Part shown: positions 5,203 to 61,230 of the stretch, piece after piece
Layout of the letters: every line of letters starts with the position of its first letter
Position numbering within the stretch: position 1 is the stretch's first letter
NCBI RefSeq assembly: GCF_030680935.1
Contig: NZ_JAUXUP010000009.1
Span: 62,001 to 126,000 of the forward strand
Source: Polaromonas sp.
GTDB taxonomy: Bacteria; Pseudomonadota; Gammaproteobacteria; Burkholderiales; Burkholderiaceae_C
Reading direction: 5' to 3'
DNA length: 64,000 nt
The notes under the pieces: model-generated
Databases searched by the model: none
What the model saw: the letters and a program-made list of their open reading frames with translations, nothing else
Told to the model about the DNA's origin: nothing
Program-made: the position numbers and the translations under genes

Positions 5203-5259
5203 GTCAAATCAGGCTCTGGCCTTTGCTGGAAAAGCGCAAGTAGCTACTAAGTAAATAGC
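5203..5259 (-). repeat. Dispersed 57-bp repeat, copy 1 (intergenic)
   Basis: Read on the minus strand it starts GCTATTTACTTAGTAGCTAC and continues TTGCGC, then AAAGGCCAGAGCC about 10 bases on and TGATTTGA at the end. It lies between accD and the Lon-domain gene, downstream of accD in the direction of transcription. It matches the other copies listed here at the inverted repeat, at TTGCGC and in the distal block. Confidence 0.75.
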
Positions 5260-5287
5260 ATATTGAGGTGTCTGGCAACACCCGGCT

Positions 5288-6160
5288 TCAGGCGACCGCG
5301 TCCGCCGGTTGCTTGAGCAGCATGGCCAGTGAGTTGGCCACGGTCTTGCGCAGCTCACGCCGGTCGCAGATGAAGTCCACTGCGCCTTTGGTCTGCAAAA
5401 ACTCGGCGCGCTGGAAGCCTTCTGGCAGGGTCACACGCACGGTCGATTCGATCACGCGCGGGCCGGCAAAACCGATCAGCGCTTTCGGCTCGGCAATCAC
5501 GATGTCGCCCACAAACGCAAAGCCGGCGCTGACACCGCCCATGGTTGGGTCGGTCAACACGCTGATGTAAGGCAGGCCTTTTTTGGCCAGCCGGGTCAGC
5601 GACGCATTGGTTTTGGCCATCTGCATCAGGCTCAGCAGGCCTTCCTGCATGCGTGCGCCGCCGGTGGCGGTGAAGCAGATGAAGGGCACTTTCTGCTCGA
5701 TCGCGGCATGCACGCCGCGCACAAAACGCTCGCCCACCACGCTGCCCATGCTGCCGCCCATGAAGTCAAACTCAAAACAGGCGACCACCACACCAATGCT
5801 GTGTACCGCGCCACCCATGACGATCAGCGCGTCGGTCTCGCCGGTGTTTTCAAGGGCTTCTTTCAGGCGCTCGGGGTACTTGCGGCTGTCCTTGAACTTG
5901 AGCGGATCGACCGGCAGCACTTCCTGGCCGATTTCATAACGACCTTCCGGGTCCAGAAACGAGTCCAGCCGGGCGCGGGCGTCCATGCGGTGGTGGTGGC
6001 TGCACTGTGGGCAGACGTTCTGGTTTTTCTCCAGATCGGTCTTGTACAGCACGGCTTCACAGCTGGGGCACTTGACCCACAGGCCCTCGGGCACACTGCG
6101 GCGCTCGGTCGGGTCGGTGGGGGTGATTTTGGGCGGGAGGAGTTTTTCTAGCCAGGACAT
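5288..6160 (-). CDS. accD: Acetyl-CoA carboxylase carboxyltransferase subunit beta
   Basis: With AccA it transfers carboxyl from biotin-BCCP to acetyl-CoA, making malonyl-CoA for fatty acid synthesis. The 290-residue protein has the N-terminal zinc ribbon, with ligands Cys31, Cys34, Cys50 and Cys53. The crotonase-like carboxyltransferase core follows, with GGSMGSVVGE and the TATGGARMQEG oxyanion segment. It starts at ATG 6160 and lies 89 bp after trpA on the same strand. The order trpF-trpB-trpA-accD is common in beta- and gammaproteobacteria. The folC gene that often follows accD is absent here. Confidence 0.97.
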   Translation of the reverse strand: MSWLEKLLPPKITPTDPTERRSVPEGLWVKCPSCEAVLYKTDLEKNQNVCPQCSHHHRMDARARLDSFLDPEGRYEIGQEVLPVDPLKFKDSRKYPERLKEALENTGETDALIVMGGAVHSIGVVVACFEFDFMGGSMGSVVGERFVRGVHAAIEQKVPFICFTATGGARMQEGLLSLMQMAKTNASLTRLAKKGLPYISVLTDPTMGGVSAGFAFVGDIVIAEPKALIGFAGPRVIESTVRVTLPEGFQRAEFLQTKGAVDFICDRRELRKTVANSLAMLLKQPADAVA

Positions 6161-60600: not shown

Positions 60601-61177
60601 AACCGAGGTCCGGCAGTTTGTCAAACGCAAAATTGATGATTTGATGGATTCGCGTGACCAGACCCTGCTGGCCGCCATCGTCAGCGACCTGCGTGTCATC
60701 AATGGCAACCGGGGCAAGCTGATTATTTTCAAACTTGACGATAAAACCGACACACTGGAAGCCTCGGTGGACGAAGCCACCTTCAACGCCAACCGCAATT
60801 TGCTGAAAGACGACGAACTGGTGATTGTGCAAGGCACGCTGCAGCCTGCCTCAGAGCGCTTCGGCCGCCGTTTCAAGGTGACACAGGTGTGGAGCCTGGA
60901 GTCCGCGCGTTGCCGCTTCGGCAAGTACCTGCGTGTGGCGGTGAACGGCGCGGCGCCGGATGTGCAGCGCATCGTGCGGGACTTTCCGCCGCGCAAGGAG
61001 ATGTCCGAGCAGGGCGAAGTGCAACGTGGTCTGGCGGTGCGCCTGAGCGTGAAGCGTGACACAGTGGTGGCCGAGCTGCAACTCGGTGATGCAGCCAAAT
61101 TTTTCCCGACCGACGCGGCGCTGGCCAGCTGGATGGCGCAGGCGGACCAGGGTGCTGCGCAGATTATTTATGAGTGA
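57671..61177 (+). CDS. dnaE: DNA polymerase III subunit alpha
   Basis: This is the replicative polymerase. The 1168-residue protein opens with a PHP domain (FVHLRIHTEFSVVDG). The palm carries catalytic Asp404 and Asp406 (MPDFDIDFC), three residues on from the E. coli numbering. Fingers, a helix-hairpin-helix region (about 840-910) and an OB fold (about 1000-1075) follow. It is DnaE1-type, with no exonuclease domain. ATG 57671 is the start. Confidence 0.97.
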   Translation: MFVHLRIHTEFSVVDGTNRIDEIVRAAASDGQPALAITDLSNLFGTVKFYKETRGAGVKPLIGADVWVQVPGKEAGAAPARLLLLVQNRQGYLNLSELLTRAWTRGVVRDQAIVSLAWLQELGEGLIALSGAQGGAVGQALVQGDAARATECALQLAGIFPHRFYLELQRAQRADDEQHVVAAVQLAARLKLPVVATHPVQFLTYDDYEAHEARVCIAEGEILGNARRVRKFTREQYFKSSAQMTELFADLPSALANTLEIAKRCNLKLDLGKAMLPEYPTPEVNGVRMPPDEYFRHASFEGLEERLAHLYPNEAIRTDKRPQYVERLEFEINTILKMGFPGYFLIVGDFINWAKNNGCPVGPGRGSGAGSLVAYSLKITDLDPLQYNLLFERFLNPERVSMPDFDIDFCQTNRDRVIDYVKDKYGHAAVSQIVTFGTMAARAAIRDVGRVLDFSYGFCDGISKLIPNKPGQAVTLQLVPADRKKNDKMVYALEAEPVLAEREAKEEDVRTLLELARKLEGLTRNVGMHAGGVLIAPGKLTDFCPLYLQPGSTSAVSQFDKNDVEAIGLVKFDFLGLATLTILELAREFIVQRHPAQKDFRFENLPLDDPRVYALFAEGKTEAVFQFESIGMQRMLRDARPNRLEDLIAMNALYRPGPMDLIPTYIARKQGKEIPEYPDPRVKPILEETYGIMVYQEQVMQTAQILGGYSLGGADMLRRAMGKKDEKEMASQRDIFRKGAGINGLSQEKADEVFDLMEKFAGYGFNKSHSAAYALLAYHTAWLKRHYTAEFFCANMTVEMGDTDKLRILFGDAQKMGISFESPDVNRGHYRFEPITDKSIRYGLGAVKGTGQQAIAAMVAAREEGGSFTSLYDFCLRVDKSKVNKRTVEALIKAGAFDNLQLNRASLLASVDRAFEFAAQAEANVNQSGLFDMDSHAASAQEPPLVDAMPFGVKARLVQEKTAIGFYLSGHLFDEVETEVRQFVKRKIDDLMDSRDQTLLAAIVSDLRVINGNRGKLIIFKLDDKTDTLEASVDEATFNANRNLLKDDELVIVQGTLQPASERFGRRFKVTQVWSLESARCRFGKYLRVAVNGAAPDVQRIVRDFPPRKEMSEQGEVQRGLAVRLSVKRDTVVAELQLGDAAKFFPTDAALASWMAQADQGAAQIIYE

Positions 61178-61230
61178 AATCGGCCTCTGGCCCTTGTTTG
61201 ACGGGCGTAAGCAGCTATCGTTTCGATAGC
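61174..61230 (-). repeat. Dispersed 57-bp repeat, copy 12 (dnaE-tolA gap)
   Basis: On the minus strand it starts GCTATCGAAACGATAGCTGC, with a perfect inverted repeat, continues TTACGCC, then ACAAGGGCCAGAGGCC and GATTTCA. It fills the gap between the convergent dnaE and tolA stops. It is one of the best copies. Confidence 0.85.

Follow-up and report, generated by a model that had tools for sequence, protein, structure and literature searches.

The 64,000-nucleotide stretch of Polaromonas sp. analysed here (contig NZ_JAUXUP010000009.1, positions 62,001 to 126,000; called the window below) carries a short dispersed repeat, copies of which lie both between genes and inside them. A sequence-only reading of the window had described about 12 copies of some 57 bp with a common fold. 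We built a seed profile from six of these copies, iterated it and ran it on the window. It returned 13 copies scoring 37.8-63.1 bits and one palindromic self-match at 32.1 bits, against a best score of 18.9 bits in 20 second-order Markov shuffles of the window, and all six copies previously named as the best were recovered. Seven of the 13 copies lie inside predicted genes, a point missing from the sequence-only reading. The copies are listed below, G followed by a number being our handle for a compared genome.

5194..5263, minus strand: intergenic copy, profile match
8782..8851, minus strand: copy inside trpF (PRAI), sense; the gene equals in length its orthologues without a copy
15301..15370, plus strand: intergenic copy upstream of the gene at 14218-15288, presumably leuB; also in G004, G017, G024, G014, G019 and G010
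18589..18658, minus strand: intergenic copy, profile match
25525..25594, minus strand: weak copy in a photolyase-related gene, sense; 29.8 bits with the 70-column profile
29012..29081, plus strand: copy inside an HpcH/HpaI (malyl-CoA-lyase-like, mcl) gene, sense; length unchanged in 12 of 12 aligned relative loci
33352..33421, plus strand: intergenic copy, profile match
40925..40994, plus strand: copy between two Pfam domains of aconitase, sense; the length of the region varies among relatives
42941..43010, plus strand: copy between convergent genes; two copies here in G024
45321..45390, plus strand: copy inside a Cyclase-family gene, which we take to be kynB, antisense; also in 8 relative loci
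51298..51367, plus strand: copy inside a tRNA-synt_1c gene, which we assume to be gluQ, antisense; local length varies, with 57 bp fewer in G013 (insertion-like)
61165..61234, minus strand: best-scoring copy, between convergent genes, profile match
63415..63484, plus strand: weak copy inside a 4HBT thioesterase gene, antisense; 21.0 bits with the 70-column profile

In the source genome the parts of the repeat follow in the order AT-rich lead, GCTAT-N7-ATAGC, TGCTTGCGC, a variable stretch, AAGGGCTGGAGGCC, an A-tract and an AT-rich tail. The motif is thus a composite of two dyads, the letters of the second varying between species, with A-tracts at columns 12-14 and 56-58 and a GC content of 0.477 and 0.436 (44-48%). 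The first dyad is weak by itself, GCTAT-N7-ATAGC with at most two mismatches occurring 21 times in the window against 11.1 expected, and the evidence for a family therefore lies in the whole block. When 70 copies from other genomes were aligned (70 of 117 core-motif matches, selected for likeness to the second half of the repeat), the edges of conservation fell at about -4 and +64 relative to the first base of GCTAT. The unit is therefore about 66-69 bp long, so that the family first noticed in the window stands, and its length of 57 bp does not. We found no published description of this repeat in the open-licence literature, and an earlier description elsewhere is possible. An 11-letter core string also turns up, as far as their available portions show, in 3 papers on human subjects.

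The family extends well beyond the window. The source genome contains 82 copies of at least 18 bits in 464 kb, 42 on the plus and 40 on the minus strand, or about one per 5.7 kb, which extrapolates to roughly 680 copies in the 3.85-Mb genome; a search of the whole genome returned at least 150 matches, all of those listed at E <= 2.2e-10. There are 75 copies in 400 kb of G024, which belongs to the same genus, and 50 in 400 kb of G139, and the spacing across the sampled genomes is one copy per 5.3-8 kb. The score gap is clear, with only 4 (source) and 1 (G024) further hits between 10 and 18 bits. No copy appeared in one second-order Markov shuffle each of the source genome and G024 (one shuffle per genome serving as control for the 464- and 400-kb samples), nor in 51.9 kb of G013, a genome of the same genus without the repeat. 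The density of about one per 5 kb, the use of both orientations and the existence of one dispersed family with no link to one gene type, all read from the window, are upheld at this scale; enrichment is far above shuffled sequence, and sites lacking the element exist, in G013 and elsewhere.

For the wider search we used a model made from 77 of 85 copies, the eight left out including two of the window; 66 of the 77 came from loci chosen by the core motif, so that the core of the model is fixed by choice, and a non-bearer is defined as a genome with no match to this model, which a different dialect could escape. With this model, 18 of 24 same-genus genomes had matches at E <= 1e-4 (two of the 18 with just 3 or 4) and six had none. 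In a family-wide sample, 38 of 120 genomes (source included) were positive at E <= 1e-6, representing 37 of 119 genera. Outside the family, 16 genomes of the same order gave no match at E <= 1e-4. Core-motif loci include, among the matches listed, Polaromonas, Rhodoferax, Acidovorax, Ottowia, Comamonas and Simplicispira, and a full profile match was obtained, partly by construction, in 96 of the 120 listed. A search of other Comamonadaceae had been suggested together with the first description, and the repeat was found there, both in these genera and in the family sample. Viral contigs with the 14-base core amounted to at least 120 loci, and 8 of the 120 listed gave a profile match; one source-genome copy used as a query hit 2 plasmid records and none from a phage.

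The repeat behaves as a signal at the level of DNA. At columns 56-58, 56/82 copies of the source, 58/75 of G024 and 45/50 of G139 read AAA or TTT, where the columns taken singly would predict 25.5, 25.7 and 24.2, and the same holds at columns 12-14 (34/82, 31/75 and 27/50, against 14.5, 14.2 and 10.4). The base pairs of helix 1 did not covary and consensus folding gave just 2 pairs. Stem tests within species yielded z values of -1.7, 0.4 and -0.2 for stem 1 and of 1.5, 0.7 and 1.9 for stem 2 (p 0.027 for the last). A z value of 3.2 for stem 2 in a mixed-species set is read as the effect of dialect differences, described below. The common fold claimed for the copies, taken as a paired structure, thus failed to show clear base-pair covariation within species. 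Because AAA and TTT are interchangeable in the A-tracts and covariation within species is lacking, the signal appears to reside in the DNA itself.

Copies tend to occupy the same positions in different genomes. Among relatives of the window region, 94 copies were found, 30 of which were unmappable and dropped; 62 of the 64 mapped copies fall in intervals holding a source-genome copy. Copies avoid divergent (promoter) gaps. Indeed, among gaps of at least 80 bp, those holding a copy are 2/43 in the source and 2/39 in G024 for divergent genes, 5/17 and 10/22 for convergent genes, and 29/118 and 20/98 for genes in the same direction. At the counterpart of window position 42941-43010, G024 carries two copies on the same strand (locus L206, 4972-5039 and 7637-7704), which stand about 2.7 kb from each other with different sequence between them, and it looks as if recombination between copies had added or removed a block.

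Unlinked sites move jointly to species-specific versions, or dialects. At about the same columns, the consensus is AAGGGCTggAG in the source, TGCGCAAaAG in G024 and TGGGCTgGAG in G139. We scored copies by the difference between source and G024 profiles (the source, G024 and G139 profiles having been trained on the same sequences that they then scored). Five of seven orthologous sites (leuB upstream, 61230, gluQ, trpF and 18654) separated clearly, with +7.6 to +11.8 in the source and -14.3 to -20.7 in G024, and kynB separated by sign (+5.4 and -14.4). In TrpF the dialect reaches the protein, as G024 has TGCGCA where the source has ACGGCT, giving Cys instead of Thr. Over four sites, identity within a species across loci was compared with identity within a locus across species: it was 0.646 (32 pairs) versus 0.585 (73 pairs) for columns 38-58, 0.643 versus 0.753 for the first dyad, and 0.580 versus 0.601 for all columns.

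In several genes the signal has apparently been written into existing coding letters and not inserted, as judged by comparison of orthologous sequences. In trpF, the motif is spelled in AT-rich codons by seven genomes (source, G004, G024, G014, G019, G020 and G010), whereas G013, G017 and G003 have GC-rich codons, no motif and a gap-free alignment over the copy; the GC content at third codon positions is 0.89-0.94 in these non-bearers and 0.28-0.44 in bearers. Three of the 12 relative mcl loci of unchanged length, those of G013, G003 and G005, lack the motif, and kynB keeps its length in 7 of the 8 bearing loci that were mapped. Moreover, PGI, NIF3, TrpF and an enoyl-CoA hydratase (ECH) of G024, whose copies score 61.8, 62.1, 47.3 and 73.3 bits respectively, were compared with their two best PDB homologues each, and the gap over the copy was 0-6 residues, where an insertion would give 23. 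Over trpF, mcl and kynB, same-residue codons of bearers match those of the source in 224/315 cases within the copy and in 2579/4342 outside it, those of non-bearers in 30/72 and 778/1324, these sums leaving out gluQ and the orthologue rows within a gene being non-independent, so that Fisher values are just a guide. Taken singly, bearers gave 92/112 inside versus 1150/2082 outside for mcl, and 87/126 versus 716/1193 for kynB. No target duplication was seen in the alignments of copy loci, read by eye, in agreement with the sequence-only reading. Its description of a mini-element spreading by another route is supported for dispersal and for the lack of a transposase link, and is not supported for insertion in view of the trpF and mcl alignments, the four proteins without a 23-residue insert, the shared positions and the dialect shifts.

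Genes, as predicted with our own gene-calling script, contain 35 of the 82 source copies (about 43%) and 32 of the 75 of G024, the other 47 and 43 lying outside or at the edge of them. With some 90% of the DNA coding, genes hold fewer copies than their share but do not exclude them. The coding copies run both sense and antisense to the gene and use mainly the three reading frames that the motif leaves stop-free by inspection (30/35 in the source, 29/32 in G024), and they therefore encode recurrent peptides. A Pfam scan covering 41 of the 67 coding copies (40 proteins; four were covered by the comparison with solved structures) gave host genes that include RNase E, MutL, DnaX, PGI, NIF3, HisD, aconitase and TrpF, several copies standing between or beyond domains (aconitase, MutL, DnaX and RNase E).

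Joint point changes at many sites call for a reader of the DNA acting in trans, and for a force that moves the sites together. We tentatively propose, while holding it short of probable, that the copies together form a recognition signal in the DNA of the whole genome, built largely by point substitution in place, and that its reader is most likely the uptake machinery. A trans-acting factor would read the composite motif in DNA and would belong to the DNA-uptake machinery of natural transformation; DNA bearing the signal would be preferentially taken up and then recombined, so that the signal would spread by point changes wherever tolerated and drift into species dialects. The model for such spread and dialects would be the DNA uptake sequences (DUS) of Neisseria and the uptake signal sequences (USS) of Haemophilus. 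The protein reader, its identity as uptake machinery and biased recombination as the driver are all three what we infer from these patterns.

In the portion of PMC7811141 available to us, USS arise by point mutation, are no inserted elements, can accumulate by molecular drive, are scarcer than expected in coding sequences and acquired segments, and have an average spacing of about 1 kb; strong uptake preference for short motifs is reported there for species of two families, Pasteurellaceae and Neisseriaceae. The accessible part of PMC3630211 describes dialects of DUS. On the same partial texts (PMC7811141, PMC3630211), the DUS of Neisseriaceae and the USS of Pasteurellaceae resemble our repeat in being genome-wide, in coding and non-coding DNA, in evolving in place, in having dialects and in being rarer in coding DNA. 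They are also rarer in acquired DNA, as our repeat may be, and USS have AT-tracts too. Over-representation (82 copies in 464 kb versus none in one shuffle), origin in place (trpF and mcl against copy-free orthologues, and the four proteins against solved homologues) and dialects (three consensus versions) are all found here. The differences lie in the core, of 9-12 bp in those systems, the present motif being a degenerate composite of about 66 bp found once per 5.3-8 kb, and in the host family, which is neither of the two named in the part of PMC7811141 that we could consult. A short, near-invariant core occurring about once per kb is lacking, and we therefore did not file the repeat as DUS/USS. 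It is quite possible, in our opinion, that the Comamonadaceae possess a third, independently evolved self-DNA uptake signal, a dyad/A-tract composite of about 66 bp with dialects and with a drive, through coding and non-coding DNA alike, strong enough to alter amino acids. If so, a widespread environmental family would have a third system of different design, and the origin of uptake bias could be compared across lineages. Uptake sequences are reported to be biased to genome-maintenance genes, and such a bias may be echoed here by the copies in MutL and DnaX and by locus L168 (6448-12599), where a UvrD-helicase gene with a PDDEXK hit contains two copies and the adjoining PDDEXK gene a third.

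A number of observations speak against this proposal. The source genome encodes ComEC and a ComP_DUS-family pilin; among same-genus genomes, ComEC is found in 22/25 and the pilin in 25/26, in bearers and non-bearers alike, and their presence in signal-free members makes them compatible with an uptake signal and no support for it. The three genomes missing ComEC (G002, G011 and G020) are all bearers, with assemblies 79-87% complete. The source pilin matches general type IV pilins in PDB, none of the 23 named ComP, and the motif is longer, more degenerate and rarer than USS. As to origin in place, some copies look inserted: gluQ is 57 bp shorter in G013, where the gap upstream of leuB is shorter too, and HemD possibly shows a length difference as well. 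The kynB case is weak evidence since the only under-threshold orthologue (G001) is still motif-like. An equal length in a close orthologue could also stem from ancient insertion followed by erosion, which the distant homologues counter for four proteins only. In trpF bearers the codon match is lower inside the copy (45/77) than outside (713/1067), for which dialect shifts could be the cause. Dialects themselves are imperfect, as the mcl score fails to separate source (+2.2) and G024 (+2.9), and G004 scores -10.0 at kynB although it is source-like at its other sites. Finally, the spacing in G024 is non-significant when compared with resampled intergenic gaps (p 0.14). The pilins (L405-L434) of genomes where the repeat is sparse or absent (G005, G007, G009, G013, G018, G022 and G023) share the start [MF]SLIELL and most others begin FTLIE, which is perhaps a difference between clades.

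The main rival is a binding site for a chromosome-organising protein that bends or wraps DNA (gyrase-, IHF- or condensin-type), directly selected at roughly regular intervals. The equivalence of A-tracts and the dyads would suit a bent or wrapped protein site, and a recurrence of one per 5-8 kb, conserved positions and the lack of a clear strand bias in the source (42/40) or in G139 (22 plus and 28 minus) would fit the reading too; G024 has 47 plus and 28 minus copies. The 20 samples of G139 gave no clear GC-skew switch from which orientation relative to replication could be read. The spacing is significantly more even than uniform placement predicts in two of four source contigs (p 0.009 and 0.017, with 0.10 and 0.22 for the other two; combined 0.0015) and in G024 (p 0.02), and counts per 5-kb bin are under-dispersed (variance/mean 0.61 and 0.76). 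Plasmid copies are few: the 150-kb Polaromonas plasmid pPNAP01 has 2 versus 26.5 expected at a density taken from the source genome and not from that host's chromosome, a scarcity that may suit the uptake reading as well. However, conserved nucleoid proteins do not usually have dialects within one genus, the six of 24 same-genus genomes without a match would have to have lost the system or to carry a dialect that escaped recognition, and no candidate protein was found. We regard this explanation as unlikely, yet serious; were it right, several hundred unrecognised protein sites would shape protein sequences in these bacteria. Whether the site serves uptake or chromosome organisation, codon choice in conserved genes, and perhaps one TrpF amino acid, appears to yield to a signal in the DNA, a point of consequence for annotation and for inferring selection from codons. 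In the source, fewer copies lie in low-GC bins (Spearman 0.32, p 0.0017; non-significant in G024, 0.11, p 0.34), a relation that we did not use. The two copies of pPNAP01 (L402, 36065 and 37420) adjoin BREX genes.

An old family of inserted mini-elements, now immobile and with its coding copies tolerated, is a poorer candidate, and we consider it improbable. Such elements, akin to miniature inverted-repeat transposable elements (MITEs), repetitive extragenic palindromic (REP) sequences or Rickettsia palindromic elements, would fit the majority of copies outside or at the edge of genes, the insertion-like length differences at gluQ and upstream of leuB, the recurrent peptides, and the several coding copies that stand in linkers or tails. 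The gap-free trpF and mcl alignments, the four proteins lacking an insert and the concerted dialect change at shared sites contradict it, and the trpF alignment suggests stepwise substitution without any indel. The insertion with target duplication expected of a MITE was likewise not seen, trpF and mcl being gap-free against copy-free orthologues and no duplication being visible by eye. Rickettsia palindromic elements too are dispersed palindromic repeats inside unrelated genes; they are insertions, and differ in this from the trpF and mcl copies, which are not inserted. REP sequences, with their REP-associated tyrosine transposases (RAYT), are short dyad repeats numbering hundreds per genome, as here, and are extragenic, whereas our copies are not restricted to extragenic DNA and are not enriched around Y1 transposase genes. 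Indeed, the single Y1 (RAYT-like) transposase found in the source genome, the nearest candidate, is about 3.6 kb from the closest copy, consistent with the earlier statement that no transposase accompanies the repeat. Mobilisation by RAYT was rejected, as Y1 genes occur in 23/24 same-genus genomes with or without the repeat, and 31 Y1 loci (94 kb) gave 7 model matches, no enrichment over the genome density. At one of these loci, L197, two opposed copies lie nearby.

Ectopic gene conversion that keeps dispersed copies similar within a species seems very improbable. It would account for columns 38-58 being more alike across loci of one species than across species at one locus, but the order is reversed over all columns and, within one species, copies agree only to about 58%. 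In addition, the dialect letters of trpF differ and the neighbouring codon-constrained letters do not, which fits point changes and not a copied block. A function in RNA, as a hairpin, terminator or small RNA, which the two dyads and the frequent occupation of convergent gaps might evoke, is highly improbable in view of the missing covariation within species, the sense and antisense coding copies, the equality of AAA and TTT, and the absence of any Rfam match at the gathering threshold in the window.

A further dispersed repeat of Betaproteobacteria is the beta-proteobacterial repeat element (BRE) of Hot et al. 2011, which, in the available portion of that paper (PMC3110155), in Bordetella measures 75-91 bp, averages 69.0% GC and is sometimes in tandem. 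It likewise occurs in Polaromonas, Rhodoferax and Acidovorax, mostly in intergenic DNA and in some coding sequences. Our family, of 66-69 bp and 44-48% GC, is set apart from BRE by this partial description and not by its letters (PMC3110155). A separate GC-rich repeat of about 95-113 bp lies in the window at about 49982-50100, and dozens of copies 85-96% identical to it are listed for same-genus genomes; by length and GC only, it fits BRE better than the family of about 66 bp does. Finally, short matches (31-53 bp, 83-95%) to window positions of about 10098-10256 in relatives suggest another small repeat.

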